In this document: one piece after another, positions 7,756-49,197 of the stretch | How positions within the stretch are numbered: the stretch's first letter is position 1 | How the letters are laid out: every line of letters starts with the position of its first letter | Source of the DNA: Butyricimonas faecihominis | Lineage (GTDB): Bacteria; Bacteroidota; Bacteroidia; Bacteroidales; Marinifilaceae | DNA: 64,000 nucleotides | Direction of reading: 5' to 3' | Assembly (NCBI RefSeq): GCF_033096445.1 | Contig: NZ_AP028155.1 | Span: 4,655,880-4,719,879 of the forward strand | Program-made: the position numbers and the translations under genes | The notes under the pieces: model-generated | Told to the model about the DNA's origin: nothing | Databases searched by the model: none | What the model saw: only the letters and a program-made list of their open reading frames with translations

Positions 7756-7827
<72 letters not shown>

Positions 7828-7868
7828 AACTTAAAAAAGAACTTACTCACTTTTCTTCCCTTCTTTTG

Positions 7869-7942
7869 AGCCTCTTGTCGGATTCGAACCAACGACCCCG
7901 AGATTACAAATCACGTGCTCTGGCCAGCTGAGCTAAAGAGGC
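7869..7942 (-). tRNA. tRNA-Thr (TGT)
   Basis: 74-base cloverleaf with acceptor GCCTCTT, loop TTTGTAA (anticodon TGT) and T-arm GGTTCGAATCC. The anticodon stem has one T-T mismatch. It lies between the SRP RNA and tRNA-Thr(GGT), transcribed together with them. Confidence 0.95.
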
Positions 7943-7953
7943 ATTTCCTAAAA

Positions 7954-8049
7954 GGGTAAGCTTACTATGTCGCACCGCTCAACCATCTACCCTTGCTGTC
8001 TTCCGACCCTGGGGGAGTTCGACAGGAGCTGGTCGCATAGGACTTACCC
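7954..8049 (-). ncRNA. ffs: Small signal recognition particle RNA (4.5S)
   Basis: On the minus strand the ends GGGTAAG and CTTACCC pair, and the apical domain has the conserved CAGGGTCGGAAGACAGCAAGG core that binds the Ffh M-domain. About 96 bases matches the short bacterial SRP RNA. With Ffh it targets membrane proteins cotranslationally. The promoter places the transcription start at the 5-prime end of the helix. Confidence 0.9.
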
Positions 8050-8054
8050 GGGCA

Positions 8055-8084
8055 CAAAAGTACAAAAATCTTCTCAGTTACCAA
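8055..8084 (-). promoter_or_regulatory. Promoter of the SRP RNA-tRNA-Thr operon
   Basis: On the minus strand, TTG (8084-8082), exactly 19 bases, then TACTTTTG (8062-8055). The predicted start coincides with the SRP RNA 5-prime end near 8049. Confidence 0.85.
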
Positions 8085-36530: not shown

Positions 36531-37298
36531 TTATTTCAATAGCCCTAATTCGATCCCTTTGTTGATAGCCTCGATGGAATTCTGTACTTCCAGTTTGTGT
36601 AGTAAGTTTTGTCTGTGAATGTTTACCGTGTGAATACTGATTTGGAGTTTGTTGGCAATCTCTTTGCTTAGTAAGCCTTTTTGAATCAAGTGGAATATTT
36701 CCGTTTCCCGCTTTGTCAGATGGATGGTCGGGGAGGATAATAATGCCGGGGAAAATAGTTCTCCGTTTCTGAGATTGAGAACGGTACAGTCAACTTGTTC
36801 TGAATTCTTCTGATCCGGAGAAATACTCATGTTGCCTAGTATAAGCCATGCTTTTCCTGAAAGTCCTTGTTCCAAAACTTGCAATCTGTTGGTTACCCTT
36901 ACATATTGTTGCTTGGCGTTACGTACCCGAAAACTGTAAATATTGCAATAATCATTTCGTTGTTCCACGGGCAGGCTATAAATGAATTGTCCCAGTTTGA
37001 TTTGTAAATCCACTAATTGATCGAAGTCATCTGGATGGAACCGGGATTCCAGATAATCTCCCTGCCTTTCCAATGTGGCAATTTTGTTTGAATCATATCC
37101 TAGTAAATCTGCGAAATTAGAGGAGGCATATACATACTTACTCTTGTAAACATCAACAACAAACGTGCAACTCTGATTTACTTTTGCCATCTGGTGGAGC
37201 ATGGCTTTATCCCGTTCCCACGCGGCATAATCAATGTCATGTATCGATAAATGTTGTCTGGCCCACATTTCTTCCCGAGTGATATTGGTTGGCTTCAT
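36531..37298 (-). CDS. PAS-LuxR transcriptional regulator
   Basis: 255 aa. A PAS-like domain lies at about 40-170 (VVDVYKSKYVYASSNFADLLGYDSNKI, YSFRVRNAKQQYVRV). A LuxR/GerE helix-turn-helix follows at about 190-245 (LTKRETEIFHLIQKGLLSKEIANKLQISIHTVNIHRQNLLHKL). No receiver domain, so it probably senses a ligand directly or through a partner. It is divergent from the structured RNA and the SusCD operon downstream of it and is a candidate regulator of them. -7 box TATATTTG is at 37353-37346. Confidence 0.85.
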   Translation of the reverse strand: MKPTNITREEMWARQHLSIHDIDYAAWERDKAMLHQMAKVNQSCTFVVDVYKSKYVYASSNFADLLGYDSNKIATLERQGDYLESRFHPDDFDQLVDLQIKLGQFIYSLPVEQRNDYCNIYSFRVRNAKQQYVRVTNRLQVLEQGLSGKAWLILGNMSISPDQKNSEQVDCTVLNLRNGELFSPALLSSPTIHLTKRETEIFHLIQKGLLSKEIANKLQISIHTVNIHRQNLLHKLEVQNSIEAINKGIELGLLK

Positions 37299-37345
37299 GC
37301 TGTATTATTGCTAATGGATTAAAAAAACTTGAGATGATTCTAATA

Positions 37346-37353
37346 CAAATATA
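37346..37353 (-). promoter_or_regulatory. -7 box of the PAS-LuxR gene
   Basis: TATATTTG on the minus strand, 48 bases before the start codon; no convincing -33 box. Confidence 0.45.
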
Positions 37354-37512
37354 ACAAAGATTCCTCATAAATGAACTAGTTTTTCTATTGAGAAAACAAG
37401 TTGGGTGGTCTGTGATTTTATCGAATTTTAAGGAATAAGATATGATTATTTTATAGAAGTAATGAATGCTGCTATATTGTTTTATTTTGGATGGTTAAAT
37501 TGTGGAGTGATA

Positions 37513-37543
37513 TTTGTTTTTTATAAAAATGTTACTATATTTG
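37513..37543 (+). promoter_or_regulatory. Promoter of the structured RNA
   Basis: TTTG (37513-37516), exactly 19 bases, TATATTTG (37536-37543): a near-perfect Bacteroidetes promoter. The predicted start is at about 37549, exactly where the closing helix of the RNA begins. Confidence 0.85.
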
Positions 37544-37548
37544 TGATG

Positions 37549-37720
37549 TCTAACATACTCAAGGGCGGGGAGTCCTGCCACAATGTAGCGGGCATTTTTT
37601 ATGCCTGCTATCTCCATACGGCGGTTCCGAACCCCCGTGATGGAGTGTGTAATGCACCCACAGCCCTTGAGGTGTTAGACAGCGGGACAGGCGGAACCGT
37701 TTCTTTTCGCTCTAATCTTT
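37549..37720 (+). ncRNA. Structured non-coding RNA, pseudoknot-containing
   Basis: TCTAACA..CTCAAGGGC (37549-37566) pairs with GCCCTTGAG.TGTTAGA (37663-37679) to close a domain of about 130 bases. Inside are a ten-pair hairpin TAGCGGGCAT/ATGCCTGCTA (37586-37610) and CTCCATACGG/CCGTGATGGAG (37612-37645). The loop of the latter, CGGTTCCG (37622-37629), is fully complementary to CGGAACCG (37692-37699) outside the domain, giving an eight-pair pseudoknot. A weak 3-prime hairpin AGCGGGA/TTTTCGCT closes it. GC-rich in an AT-rich gap. An 86-codon frame runs across it but starts upstream of the promoter. It may belong to the described Bacteroidales-1 type motifs, unverified. Confidence 0.75.
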
Positions 37721-38149
37721 AATAAAAAAGGCTTATGGAGGTAAATCGTAATTGTATCTCTGCGTGTAAAAGGGGGAATCCGGCTTTAATAATTCTTTTG
37801 ACTTTGTTGTTAGACAAGTGGTGTAGAGGAACCATTTAGTTTGTAATGAGATCGGCGTGACGAACATTCGTGTTGTGGGCCGGGAATGTTCAGATCTTTG
37901 TATTTCTTCATCAGTTTTTATAGAATCCTTATCTTGAATGACAAAGGGGTAGTTTGTTGTGCCATCGTTGTCATGATGGAGCGGAATTGTAATCGTTTAA
38001 CTGAAATGAGAATAAAATGAAATAGTTAGAGTAAAGTACGTTGAGAAAAGCAACGGAAGAATAGAAAAGGGAGGTATCCTCTGCCTGGAAAACTTTGAAT
38101 ACCATCCCTTTATGTAATCAATCTTATCAATTAATTAACAATCAAAGTT
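37721..38149 (+). other. Intergenic leader region before SusC
   Basis: 429 bases without a credible gene. No clear TAnnTTTG box near the gene and no strong hairpin were seen. It should hold the promoter and 5-prime leader of the SusCD operon. Confidence 0.4.
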
Positions 38150-41100
38150 ATGAAAAAAACTTATGACAGGAATGTTTTTAAGCGAAAGTTACTGTCGGAT
38201 CGAAGGACGGTAACCGTGACAATCCGGTTATTTATGATTTTATTGTTGGGCTTTCCGCTATTGACGAGGGCCGGGACGGTGGATTCCACTCGTGTGGCAA
38301 ACCGGGAAGTGAGGGGAAAGGTGATAGACGAGAAAAAGCAGCCCATTCCGGGAGTTTCGGTACGTCTGGGAGGAACATCAATGGGAACAGCCACTGATGT
38401 AGATGGGAAGTTCAAGTTATTGATCCCGGCTGACACGGCCACGCTAGTCGTTTCCTTTATCGGGATGAAGACGGAGGACGTGAGGATTCCCCGGTTGAAA
38501 GCGGGCGTGGAACAGAAGGAGTTGACGATCGTGTTGCGGGAAGAGGACGTGAAACTGGAAGACGTGGTGGTGACGGGTATCTTCACGCGTAAGAAGGAAA
38601 GTTTCACGGGATCGGCATCCACTTACTCGGCTGCCGAGTTGAAAACGATGGGTACGCAGAACGTGCTGCAAAGTTTGAAGACGCTGGACCCGGCTTTCGC
38701 CATTATCGAGGATAACCAGTTCGGGTCGGACCCGAACCGTTTGCCGAACATGGAAATCCGGGGAAAGTCGAGTATGTTAGGTTTACGGGACGAGCTAGAT
38801 GCCGACCCGAACCAGCCGTTGTTTATCCTTGATGGGTTTGAGTCAACGTTGGCAGCGATTAATGATTTGGATATAAACCGGGTGGCCTCGATCACGATCT
38901 TGAAAGACGCGGCGTCGACGGCCATTTACGGTTCGAAGGCGGCTAACGGGGTGATCGTGGTGGAAACGGTGAAACCGGAGGCCGGGAAATTGCAGGTAAG
39001 TTATACCGGAAACATGAATCTCTCGATGCCCGATTTGTCGAGTTATAACTTGATGAATTCAAGGGAAAAGCTGGAATTTGAATTATTGGCAGGGAGGTAT
39101 GATCCGGTGAATTGGTCCACGACGAACGAGGTGGAATTAACCCGTTTGTATAACGAGAAATTGAAGAAAATCGAGAGTGGTGTAAACACGTACTGGTTGG
39201 CTGAACCTTTACGGGTAGGAGTGAACCAGAAACATTCACTCTACGTGCAGGGAGGCGAGGGGAATTTCCTGTTCGGCTTGGGAGCGGGATACAACGGGAT
39301 TTCCGGGGTGATGGAAAAGTCGGAGCGGGATGTGATCAGTGGCAATATCGACTTGATTTACCGGATGTCGAAATTCCAGTTCTCTAACAAATTCTCGTTG
39401 ACCTCAACTCATTTCAAGAACCCGATCGTGGCATTCAGCGCGTATGCTGCGGCGAATCCTTATTACAAAAAGTATAATGACGAGGGAACGGTGGATAAAT
39501 GGTTGGAATATAATGATTACTTCAAAGCTTCGAATCCACTGTGGAACGCGAGCCAAAATAGTCGGGATAAGGGAAGTAATCTCTTGTTGAACAATTATTT
39601 CATGGCGGAATATTTCCCCACGACGGAATGGCGGGTACGTGCCCGGTTGGGATTGACTTACGGGAATGATGACACGGAGAAGTTCTATTCCCGGAATGAT
39701 ACCCGATATGAGAACGTGGAAACTACTAAAAAGGGAGAGTTTCATTCAAATAACGTCCGAACAAATCAAGTTGAGGCGGAGTTAAGTGTCACGTACGCGA
39801 AAGTACTGGGAAAACACAGGATTAACTTGGTTGCCGGGGGAAATATTTCCAGCAATAAATCGCTTACGCAGGGGTATTCTGCGGTAGGATTCCCGGACGG
39901 AGATTTTTCTTACCCCTCTTTTTCGAACGGCTACCCGGAATACGGGACTCCTGCATACTACGAGTCGGTTTCCCGTTCCGTGAACGGTTATTTCAACGCG
40001 GGGTATTCTTTTGACGATCGTTACTTGATGGATTTCAGCCTGCGGACGAGCGGTTCATCGGTTTTCGGTACTTCCCGGAGATACAATACGACGTGGTCGG
40101 TCGGGTTGGGCTGGAACTTGCACAAGGAGAAGTTTATCATGGATCACGTGGCATGGATTAATATATTGAAACTGCGGGCCTCTATTGGAAATCCGGGGAA
40201 CCAGAGTTTTGACTCCGCGCAATCCTTGTTGACTTACTCGTTCCAGTTTGGTTCCATGAACTACTTCGGGATCGGGGCGGAATTGTCGCAGATCGGAAAC
40301 CCCGATTTGGAATGGCAGATCACGGTGGATAAGAATATCGGTTTGGACGTGACGTTGTTTAATAAACGCTTTTCGTTGACGGCAGATTACTATTACAAGG
40401 TGACCGACCCGTTGTTGATCAAGGTAAGTACACCGCTTTCTTCCGGAACATCCACTTACATGACGAACGCGGGAGAACAGGTGTCGCAGGGGTTGACGGC
40501 ATCGGTGTCCTATTTTATTTTCCAAGATTTCGAGAAACGCTTCTCGTGGATGGTACGGGCGAACGTGCGGACGCAGAAAACCCGGATTGACAAGATCGGG
40601 AACAAGCTTTCCTCTCTGAATGCCAGTGGAAAGGGAGAAAACACGGTGAGGTATTATGACGGGGCCGACCCGGATGATATTTGGGCGGTAAGGTCCGCGG
40701 GGATTGATCCCTCGAACGGGAAGGAGTTGTTTTATGCCAAGGACGGGAGTTACACGTACGATTTCTCGTATGATGACGAGGTGATTTGCGGGAATACCCG
40801 CCCGGACGTGGAGGGCGTGATTGGTTCATCGCTCAATTGGAAGGGATTTTCCGTGAGCTTGAATTTCCGTTACCAGATGGGGGCTGACGTGTTCAACGAG
40901 GCTCTTTATAACAAGGTGGAAAATATTTCGAGAAATGATCTGAACAAGAATCAGGACAAGCGGGCGTTGTACGAGCGTTGGCAGGAAGTGGGGGACATCG
41001 TGCATTTCAAGGATATTGCCAGTGCGGAGACGACCCCGATGTCTTCCCGTTTCGTGCAGGAAGAGAACGTGTTGACCTTGGAATCTATCTACGTGGGATA

Positions 41101-41260
41101 CGAGTTCTATGACGGATGGATCAAAAAATTAGGGTTAAGTAGTTTGAAGATTCAAGCATCCATGCGTGACGTGTTCCGGGCATCGACCATCCGGTCCGAG
41201 CGAGGAATTGCCTATCCTTTTGCCCGGAGTATGGAGGCAGGACTTTCGTTTAATTTTTAA
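38150..41260 (+). CDS. SusC/RagA-type TonB-linked outer-membrane transporter
   Basis: 1036 aa. Signal segment near 23-42, a CarboxypepD-regulatory domain (about 50-135: VRGKVIDEKKQPIPGVSVRLGG, GTATDVDGKFKLLI), a plug domain (about 140-270) with ILKDAASTAIYGSKAANGVIVV, and a barrel ending in LSFNF. It forms the TonB-driven pore capped by the SusD lipoprotein. There is no STN domain, so no FecR signalling is expected. It is first in a four-gene operon ending at the terminator at 45245; without glycosidases the substrate is unknown, and peptides or host molecules are as likely as glycans. Confidence 0.95.
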   Translation: MKKTYDRNVFKRKLLSDRRTVTVTIRLFMILLLGFPLLTRAGTVDSTRVANREVRGKVIDEKKQPIPGVSVRLGGTSMGTATDVDGKFKLLIPADTATLVVSFIGMKTEDVRIPRLKAGVEQKELTIVLREEDVKLEDVVVTGIFTRKKESFTGSASTYSAAELKTMGTQNVLQSLKTLDPAFAIIEDNQFGSDPNRLPNMEIRGKSSMLGLRDELDADPNQPLFILDGFESTLAAINDLDINRVASITILKDAASTAIYGSKAANGVIVVETVKPEAGKLQVSYTGNMNLSMPDLSSYNLMNSREKLEFELLAGRYDPVNWSTTNEVELTRLYNEKLKKIESGVNTYWLAEPLRVGVNQKHSLYVQGGEGNFLFGLGAGYNGISGVMEKSERDVISGNIDLIYRMSKFQFSNKFSLTSTHFKNPIVAFSAYAAANPYYKKYNDEGTVDKWLEYNDYFKASNPLWNASQNSRDKGSNLLLNNYFMAEYFPTTEWRVRARLGLTYGNDDTEKFYSRNDTRYENVETTKKGEFHSNNVRTNQVEAELSVTYAKVLGKHRINLVAGGNISSNKSLTQGYSAVGFPDGDFSYPSFSNGYPEYGTPAYYESVSRSVNGYFNAGYSFDDRYLMDFSLRTSGSSVFGTSRRYNTTWSVGLGWNLHKEKFIMDHVAWINILKLRASIGNPGNQSFDSAQSLLTYSFQFGSMNYFGIGAELSQIGNPDLEWQITVDKNIGLDVTLFNKRFSLTADYYYKVTDPLLIKVSTPLSSGTSTYMTNAGEQVSQGLTASVSYFIFQDFEKRFSWMVRANVRTQKTRIDKIGNKLSSLNASGKGENTVRYYDGADPDDIWAVRSAGIDPSNGKELFYAKDGSYTYDFSYDDEVICGNTRPDVEGVIGSSLNWKGFSVSLNFRYQMGADVFNEALYNKVENISRNDLNKNQDKRALYERWQEVGDIVHFKDIASAETTPMSSRFVQEENVLTLESIYVGYEFYDGWIKKLGLSSLKIQASMRDVFRASTIRSERGIAYPFARSMEAGLSFNF

Positions 41261-41272
41261 AGATGAATGGTT

Positions 41273-42748
41273 ATGAAATTATGGAATATCATTTGGATCG
41301 GGGTTGTACTCGTGTGTGGTGTAGGATGTTCGGATTTTCTGGATGTTCAGCCCAAGGATAAACAGTCTGAGGAACAGTTGTTTTCGACGAGAGGCGGATT
41401 CTACACGGCGGTAAACGGGATATATAACAAGGTGGCCTCCACGGCTCTTTACGGGAAAAATCTTTCTTACGAGTTGGTGGACGTGATCTCGAAACGGTAC
41501 GCACCGTTGCAATCAAACACGTACTTGACAGCGTTGAGTACCTTCGATTACACGGAGGCTTCGGTGCAGACCGGGTTATCGAACACGTGGACTGAGGCTT
41601 ACAACACGATATTGAATTGTAACGTGGTGTTGGATAATCTTGAAAAGAGCGATGGCGTGTTGTTGCCTGCTGAATACCGGATGTTGAAAGGAGAAATGCT
41701 GGCTCTCCGAGCCTTCTTGCATTTTGATATGTTACGTTTGTTCGGTCCGGTTTACAAACTTCATCCGGAGATGGAGTCGATCCCTTACAACGAGTCATCG
41801 AGAGTATCAGCCTTGCCGTTGTTGACGGCTGATTCTGTACTACATGAGAAGATTCTGCGGGATTTGGATGAGGCTGAGCGTATGCTGGTGGATAGCGACC
41901 CCGTGATTGAAGGCGGGCGGATGGCTTCGCAGGAGGGGGATGAGGATGTGTATTTGCGTTATCGCCAGTTGCGGATGAATTATTATGCCGTGCTGGCATT
42001 GAAGGCGAGGGTGTACCTGTACGCGGGAGAAGAGGCGAAAGCTTTGGCCGTGGCTCGTGAATTACTGACCGATTCGAAAGTGGATGAATATTTCCCGGCT
42101 GTTGATCCCAATAAACTTCTGGCGAATCAGGATAACCCGGATCGGGTGTTCTCGACAGAAGTGTTGGCCGGAATCTATGTGAAAGATCGGGCCGATATTC
42201 ATACTACTTATTTCAGTTCAGAACAGGCGGGAACGAATTACCTGCACCCCCGGAAGAATTACGTGAATGCGAACCTTTTCGCGGAAGAAACGCAGGATTA
42301 TCGTTTTCAATCGTGCTGGCGTACAGCTTCTAACGAGAACGAAGGAGGATATGACTTTATCAAATACGAGGAGATTGCTAAACCTACTCAAGCGGGAGAG
42401 ACCGAGTATTTTTATGCCGTTTTCATGTCGTTGATCCGGTTGAGCGAGGTGTATTATATCGCGGCCGAGTGTGAACCCGTGCTGGCAGATAAATACGAGT
42501 GGTTGAATAAAATGCGGGAGCGCCGAGGTTTGAGTGCTTTAACCGTGGTTTCGGATGAGGATTTCATGAAGCGTTTGCGTATGGAATATTTGCGGGAGTT
42601 CATGGGTGAAGGACAGATATTCTTCATGTACAAACGGTTGTATGCCCATCTCCTCAGCGATGAGAACGGGAATGATGCAAATGCTTATGAAGCTCGGGAA
42701 GAGCGTTACGTGTTGCCGTTACCTTCCGGGGAAATCGCTAATCGTTAA
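41273..42748 (+). CDS. SusD/RagB-type surface lipoprotein
   Basis: 491 aa from the ATG at 41273. The pattern gttATGAAA shared with SusC and the next two genes favours it over the ATG at 41267. The lipobox VCGVGC anchors it on the outer surface. Helical TPR-like core with conserved SusD blocks (SDFLDVQPKD, AEYRMLKGEMLALRAFLHFDMLRLFGPVY, VYYIAAECEPV, RRGLSALTV). It captures ligand over the SusC pore. Confidence 0.93.
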   Translation: MKLWNIIWIGVVLVCGVGCSDFLDVQPKDKQSEEQLFSTRGGFYTAVNGIYNKVASTALYGKNLSYELVDVISKRYAPLQSNTYLTALSTFDYTEASVQTGLSNTWTEAYNTILNCNVVLDNLEKSDGVLLPAEYRMLKGEMLALRAFLHFDMLRLFGPVYKLHPEMESIPYNESSRVSALPLLTADSVLHEKILRDLDEAERMLVDSDPVIEGGRMASQEGDEDVYLRYRQLRMNYYAVLALKARVYLYAGEEAKALAVARELLTDSKVDEYFPAVDPNKLLANQDNPDRVFSTEVLAGIYVKDRADIHTTYFSSEQAGTNYLHPRKNYVNANLFAEETQDYRFQSCWRTASNENEGGYDFIKYEEIAKPTQAGETEYFYAVFMSLIRLSEVYYIAAECEPVLADKYEWLNKMRERRGLSALTVVSDEDFMKRLRMEYLREFMGEGQIFFMYKRLYAHLLSDENGNDANAYEAREERYVLPLPSGEIANR

Positions 42749-49124: not shown

Positions 49125-49197
49125 TGGTGCCACCAGGAATCGAACCGGGGACACAAGGATTTTCAGTCCTTTGCTCTACCAACTGAGCTATGGCACC
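49125..49197 (-). tRNA. tRNA-Phe (GAA)
   Basis: 73-base cloverleaf: acceptor GGTGCCA/TGGCACC, anticodon stem AAGGA/TCCTT with loop CTGAAAA (anticodon GAA), T-arm GGTTCGATTCC. It is a single-gene unit with its own promoter and terminator. Confidence 0.95.

Follow-up and report, generated by a model that had tools for sequence, protein, structure and literature searches.

A predicted phage-borne RNA family of Bacteroidota, probably of switchable leaders, with a copy before a SusCD operon of Butyricimonas faecihominis

To our knowledge, RNA-based regulation is poorly characterised in the temperate phages of gut Bacteroidota. By analogy, the described RNAs that appear closest in action to the element reported here are IsrK, the CI RNA of satellite P4 and c4, and a sequence relation to these three was compared through Rfam only. 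IsrK of prophage Gifsy-1 in Salmonella has its own promoter and yields a short terminated RNA and a read-through mRNA with mutually exclusive structures (PMC4825925). It would resemble the present family in the antirepressor-like gene behind it and in an RNA part that pairs with downstream sequence, but it belongs to another host phylum, pairs inside orf45 and has a short form that activates in trans; the described parts of IsrK contain neither a closing helix that repeats the start region nor a pseudoknot (PMC4825925). The P4 CI RNA is similarly an antisense RNA with complementary sequences (seqA and seqC) up- and downstream in the same transcript, but, as far as this source describes it, it acts by transcription termination, is a processed product and comes from another phylum (PMC4825925). 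The c4 RNA of phages P1 and P7 controls antirepressor translation near the ribosome site and is linked to heteroimmunity; in the portion of the source used here it is 77 nt long with complementary sequences that likely lie in loops, whereas the present family measures about 165 nt and has a closing helix and a pseudoknot (PMC12197685).

Two further systems share single traits with this family. The folds of the timPR mRNA exclude one another, and its active form contains a pseudoknot; it differs in having a separate antitoxin RNA and one enterobacterial toxin gene, and the portion of the source used here mentions no closing helix that repeats the start region (PMC11228461). FopS of Bacteroides thetaiotaomicron is multicopy, has a sigma-ABfr promoter, is linked to SusC regulation and has its sequence also in a phage, but at about 65-70 nt, with nine intergenic copies, four antisense copies and one in a 3' UTR, and with its action in trans on SusC start regions, it is set apart from the present RNA by its description, so far as that source gives it (PMC11697453).

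The window analysed here is a stretch of 64,000 nucleotides from Butyricimonas faecihominis, at positions 4655880-4719879 of its contig, and the features of the element all lie on its plus strand. Transcription would be driven by a promoter of the established Bacteroidota consensus, TTTG / TAnnTTTG. Its -33 element TTTG (37513-37516, exact position verified in the sequence) is followed at a spacing of 19 by the -7 element TATATTTG (37536-37543), exactly where the original prediction had placed both; the pattern TTTG-N19-TAnnTTTG alone is not rare, with three occurrences on the two strands of the 64 kb. The closing helix P1 also lies at the place predicted for it, but it has 19 pairs and one bulged A instead of 16-17 pairs and begins at 37547 instead of 37549. 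Its 5' strand (37547-37566), supported by covariation, consists of an outer part TGTCTAACAT, the bulged A (37557) and an inner part CTCAAGGGC; its 3' strand occupies 37663-37681. There are also a candidate early hairpin P2 (GGC...GCC, 37563-37579), which on a reading of the sequence would compete with inner P1 and which has only two of its pairs in the consensus structure, hairpin P3 (37586-37610; helix 5, 85.2% of cells paired, changes mostly one-sided) and hairpin P5 with a UAAU loop region (37641-37660; helix 8, two-sided changes in five of seven pairs). A further hairpin of the single-sequence fold, P4, was rejected, as by eye it forms no separate helix in distant copies.

The pseudoknot joins this domain to the tail through eight PKa pairs and five PKb pairs, both in the consensus fold. 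The PKa 5' strand (CGGUUCCG in RNA, CGGTTCCG in DNA, 37622-37629) has its exact partner in CGGAACCG at 37692-37699, as claimed beforehand, and covariation supports the match. PKb (CCCGU, 37634-37638, with 37682-37686) shows no two-sided changes and so lacks covariation support. A U-run (37700-37707) follows the pseudoknot and is the likely 3' end of a terminated RNA. The segment 37549-37720 folds at -76.7 kcal/mol (z = -5.8), a value reached by none of 200 shuffles, and the described contrast between a GC-rich element and an AT-rich gap holds (G+C 0.55 in 37548-37705 vs 0.36 in 37300-38149, RNA included). Behind the RNA lie a 34-codon ORF directly 3' of it (37735-37839; its codons 4-5 encode N-R, as in 10 of the 11 copies compared within the genus) and, as foreseen, genes for a SusC-like TonB-dependent receptor (38150-41260) and a SusD-like lipoprotein (41267-42748). 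The interval from the RNA to SusC holds no TAnnTTTG box; this agrees with read-through into SusCD without showing it. On the other side, the RNA is adjoined by a divergent gene for a LuxR-type regulator (36531-37298, minus strand) with a sub-threshold PAS-fold match, which could control the SusCD operon.

Homologues were collected by sequence and by structure. A BLAST-type search returned three copies in the organism's own 4.85-Mb genome (E < 1e-30) and matches at E < 1e-3 in 12 other genomes (96 searched). With a covariance model built from 27 sequences (R1), five copies were found in the own genome, and matches in 15 of 56 genomes of the family and 19 of 393 of the order (E up to 0.01), as well as in three of 395 of the phylum (E up to 1e-4), of which the own genome and one other (G219) were already among the order matches; these genome counts are lower bounds because stricter filters apply in such large searches. 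The distribution is sporadic, and tandem copies occur, for example three within 0.8 kb of one locus (L143).

Phage and plasmid collections gave no match to the window sequence by blastn, and a first viral pattern hit four contigs, three at 13-15 bits and one without a model score, that were taken as chance (stretches of 67-69% G+C). Core patterns that leave P1 open matched 47 + 11 IMG/VR contigs, on which R1 made 61 matches covering all 58 contigs (weakest E 0.0016); as these contigs are not independent, they were reduced to 51 nonidentical RNAs from 48 contigs by removing identical and tail-less rows. The core pattern likewise met 76 stretches of named genomes, and R1 matched all 76 with 84 matches in total. 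Named hosts include Bacteroides, Parabacteroides, Alistipes, Barnesiella, Tannerella, Prevotellaceae, Flavobacterium and Chitinophagaceae. One copy (L218) sits on a metagenome-assembled contig titled Merdimonas, a genus outside Bacteroidota, perhaps through misbinning or transfer. As judged from these searches, the predicted RNA family is phage-borne and extends across Bacteroidota. It should be noted that weakly conserved copies are under-sampled, since loci were found by sequence or core pattern. From 209 model matches, removal of 12 without a recognised tail anchor and 27 identical repeats left 170 homologues; 28 of these have no ORF of the required size nearby, leaving 142 loci for the start-region tests, and the strand-pairing and local-fold tests used 165 and 152 of the 170, the rest being left out for length.

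The fold is conserved well beyond the window. When the 27 homologues were aligned without reference to structure, 91.1% of cells were paired, and there were 132 two-sided changes as opposed to 44.2 after shuffling and 13-28 with partners slid, carried by P1, P5 and the pseudoknot. RNAalifold alone chose the loop-to-tail pairing and omitted P1, which crosses that pairing. Among the 165 nonidentical sequences, the cognate pairing of P1 5' with P1 3' ranked in the best 5% in 153, and that of the tail with its pseudoknot partner in 64, the latter result being equalled in none of 2000 permutations. The -7 box TAnnTTTG stands at one fixed offset in 100 of the 170 nonidentical homologues.

These homologues also speak on the nature of the product. 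The long ORF (37462-37722) starts upstream of the promoter, as noted before, and was held to be probably no protein by the original prediction, which had named codon-level conservation as the sign to the contrary. At least one frame is open through the RNA in 58 of the 170 homologues, any given frame is open in 28 at most, and all three values modulo 3 occur among the lengths; this combination makes a conserved protein gene unlikely, and that reading was discarded on the count of open frames. A known Rfam family was likewise discarded. Searching 37300-38160 against Rfam 15 (including Bacteroidales-1) up to E = 10 gave no match and no support for the suggestion of one of the Bacteroidales conserved RNA motifs, and at the gathering score the window and ten homologous loci contained only tRNA and SRP RNA, outside the element. 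Those of the window are a Bacteroidales small SRP RNA and two tRNA genes (7950-8056 and 7756-7942, minus strand) and another tRNA gene (49125-49197, minus strand). By its sequence and its comparative fold the element is a member of an RNA family of about 165 nt that is absent from Rfam. No description of this RNA was found among the matches listed for open-access papers; an earlier unnamed prediction elsewhere, as in the candidate lists of PMC8040213, is possible. The original interpretation is partly supported overall: there is good support for a structured RNA, regulatory or stand-alone, that has a promoter of its own and a pseudoknot that covaries, and what is new is the phage-borne family and the match of the P1 3' strand to the start of the next gene in most phage copies.

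Where a gene was found behind the RNA, its start codon lies at a median of 54 nt after the tail. Pfam assigned, among 86 downstream proteins, 12 to Bro-N, six to ANT, four to Rha, two to SymE and one each to KilA-N, HEPN and SAP30_Sin3_bdg, so that 27 of the 86 at most have a Pfam match; among the PHROG matches, anti-repressors are the most frequent, with up to 15 members. Many short proteins stand behind phage copies, and within the window's family the RNA precedes SymE and two protein families without a Pfam match above the cut-off. In Odoribacteraceae (L040, L054, L060, L134-L138, L058), the RNA is followed by two families of proteins, sometimes fused, that by eye resemble each other (helical, and a repeated 'LxGLSxxQLxxL' unit); the members scanned lack a Pfam match above the cut-off. 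At three loci (L123, L124, L131; L122 by position) the RNA and small ORFs lie in the structural region upstream of a tail tape measure gene (PHROG), in a moron-like arrangement. An H-[EQ]-[TKS] motif occurs within the first 40 codons of unrelated downstream proteins in 14 of 138 cases as against 2.2 after shuffling (maximum 7); its carriers (L150, L155, L178, L182, L187, L215, L228, L231, L241, L258 and others) often encode it by a near-constant stretch similar to GCCCACGAAACGGGC. Such a stretch could fold into a small hairpin and is perhaps a further RNA element in the coding region.

In most phage relatives, the next gene has a start region to which the P1 3' strand is complementary. Across the 142 nonidentical loci that have an ORF close by (50 codons or more, or 20 at contig ends), the mean energy of this strand with the own start region is -13.72 kcal/mol, compared with -8.58 for all pairs. 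No mean among 2000 permutations was as low, and the strand beats 95% of swapped strands in 83 loci; as related sequences remain in the set, these permutations do not count as independent trials, and the negative controls share that relatedness. The share in the best 5% was 36 of 49 for viral loci, 28 of 55 for named genomes and 19 of 38 for loci fetched by place, and 59 loci with a nearby gene fall outside it. Control segments set against the same start regions reached the best 5% in 10 (P3) and 11 (P5) of 142 loci, with 397 and 1712 of 2000 permutations as low; for the upstream flank the count was 4 of 141. Against a stretch inside the coding region the P1 3' strand scored slightly above swapped strands (14 of 142; as low a value in 50 of 2000 permutations). 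Exact words of eight or more letters common to the P1 5' strand and the own start region were present in 65 of the 142 loci, the swapped mean being 5.6 and the maximum 14 in 1000 permutations.

Loci with two cassettes allow a comparison within one locus: each start fits its own P1 best in five of seven, with a tie in L228 and one reversal in L236 (by longest shared word). Two paralogous genes of L195 begin MHSTENTCLQRNN and MLYTENTCLQRNN, and the codons that differ (2-3) match their own P1 strands. A mobile-element or intron reading, with the P1 5' strand and the start region as flanking repeats, was set aside, since the complementary internal strand changes with both repeats and the L195 paralogues differ in codons 2-3 just as their P1 strands do. 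Complementarity of an RNA segment to the translation start of the downstream operon, as in c4 and P4 CI RNA, is present at the level of the family and absent from the window copy. Given the start-region match in most phage loci, the P1 3' strand would pair either with its own 5' strand or with the start codon, and the RNA probably controls the gene behind it in phages. Pseudoknot-free folding of the 142 read-through leaders kept P1 in 127, gave the blocked state in two and neither in 13; as these folds favour P1, the blocked state would need the pseudoknot, the order of folding, processing or a partner RNA.

A second alternative concerns the tail. A run of at least four T follows the pseudoknot in 148 of 170 homologues, as against 28 of 170 in a control stretch, and the pseudoknot helix together with the U-run would end transcription. 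In most copies the tail has a second partner, a stretch 3' of the U-run that competes with the pseudoknot for it and gives hairpin T. Its cognate energy is -12.85 vs -10.81, with 21 of 165 in the best 5% and none of 2000 permutations as good, a weak test because the tail hardly varies; in local folds at least five tail bases lie in a downstream hairpin in 134 of 152. This was not the case in the window and four of its ten sister copies (L036, L039, L041, L043). A possible hairpin T can be read in the window sequence (GCGGAA with UUUUCGC, 37691-37710), where it would compete with PKa for the tail, but it is uncertain there, and the lowest-energy local fold of the window tail is another hairpin. 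One phage group (L166, L175, L183, L190, L197 and others) has a long tail-competing hairpin whose 3' arm resembles the pseudoknot 5' strand (by eye; L190 folded).

Copies of the window's own genus form a setting of their own. Eight of eleven, the window included, lie before a SusC-like gene (called by Pfam for the window, L036 and L045, and by near-identical starts for the remaining copies), and it is in copies of this genus that the SusCD setting was seen. The other three lie before a sigma factor and FecR (L041), with FecR as the next gene on the strand (L047), and before a Golvesin_C-domain protein (L050). Each of these eleven RNAs is followed by an ORF of 15-37 codons. None of the eleven P1 strands beats 95% of other P1 strands against its start (best 93%), and the window P1 3' strand found nothing above chance at the SusC start or anywhere within 600 nt. 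In the same eleven copies 98.4% of cells are paired, with 32 two-sided changes vs 9.1 after shuffling, distributed over 11 pairs and above all in P1. The fold is still selected while the match to the start is absent, so that the window copy keeps the RNA and not the start-codon address. It may be a domesticated leader or small RNA; most likely it works as an attenuating SusCD leader or as a small RNA on another target.

We consider it probable that the window element is a copy of a phage-borne Bacteroidota RNA family acting as a switchable leader. The pairing alternatives are shown by sequence comparison, and what they would do to expression we infer from them. Transcription would start at P1, and this helix would close the pseudoknot into which the RNA folds. 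Some transcripts would end at the U-run 3' of the pseudoknot, giving an RNA of about 160 nt, and read-through transcripts would carry the next gene. In phage copies two choices would then set the expression of that gene. The tail would pair either with the hairpin loop, giving the pseudoknot and favouring termination, or with the downstream stretch, giving hairpin T and favouring read-through; the P1 3' strand would pair either with the P1 5' strand, leaving the start codon free, or with the start-codon copy, blocking translation. Accessory genes, antirepressors among them, would be held in check during lysogeny in phages, with P1 as the address that separates neighbouring cassettes. The window copy has lost the start-codon copy and kept promoter, P1, pseudoknot and U-run, with no clear hairpin T. 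A different division of labour, possible if rather doubtful, would be that of a trans-acting antisense immunity RNA like c4 of phage P1 or CI of satellite P4, in which the short RNA represses its own read-through mRNA and that of superinfecting phages and helix P1 sets the specificity of immunity. The P4 layout of seqA, CI RNA and seqC, in the portion of the source used, resembles the order P1 5' strand, P1 3' strand and start copy (PMC4825925), antirepressor genes stand downstream as they do for c4 in its source (PMC12197685), and neighbouring cassettes have different P1 helices with matching starts in five of seven loci. The P1 3' strand of the short RNA is, however, already engaged in a long helix, and an antisense role would need P1 to open. 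The absence of an Rfam match also weighs against such an RNA, c4 being among the Rfam families.

Many riboswitches have a closing helix whose 3' strand also pairs downstream, and a conserved core closed by a variable P1 of this kind would suit a ligand-sensing riboswitch in which a metabolite or ion bound by the core would stabilise P1 and release the start codon; no common pathway was found, however, among the genes behind the RNA (antirepressors, SymE, SusC, sigma, FecR and many small proteins), and we regard this reading as quite improbable. Type I-like toxin control, with the RNA silencing small toxic proteins, is unlikely: the SymE family behind some copies, the many short proteins behind phage copies and the precedent of the timPR mRNA, whose folds exclude one another and whose active form has a pseudoknot in the portion of the source used (PMC11228461), speak for it, but SymE accounts for only 2 of 86 first downstream proteins, and antirepressors and SusC are no toxins. 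There is similarly little probability that the window copy is a vestige, duplicated along with the SusCD block and without function, because the fold is selected in the very eleven genus copies (two-sided changes in 11 pairs, and pairing in 98.4% of cells) that all lack the P1-to-start match and of which five have an unclear hairpin T, and because promoter and U-run are present in the window. Returning to the switchable leader, we tentatively propose, as an idea somewhat more apt to fail than to hold, a portable two-layer RNA switch. A near-invariant pseudoknot core would be combined with a freely variable address helix that recurs in three places, as the P1 5' strand, as its complement and in the start region of the next gene, so that cassettes with unrelated genes would be orthogonal within one phage. 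Hosts would have captured the core and set it ahead of operons for nutrient transporters and sigma factors; there the address would have been detached and the RNA would have gained a new target.

A family that is absent from Rfam, occurs on 58 viral contigs, has hosts ranging from Bacteroides to Flavobacterium and displays a visible address code would provide a handle on the silencing of antirepressors and accessory genes in these phages. It also suggests a route by which a phage regulatory part may end up before SusCD operons.
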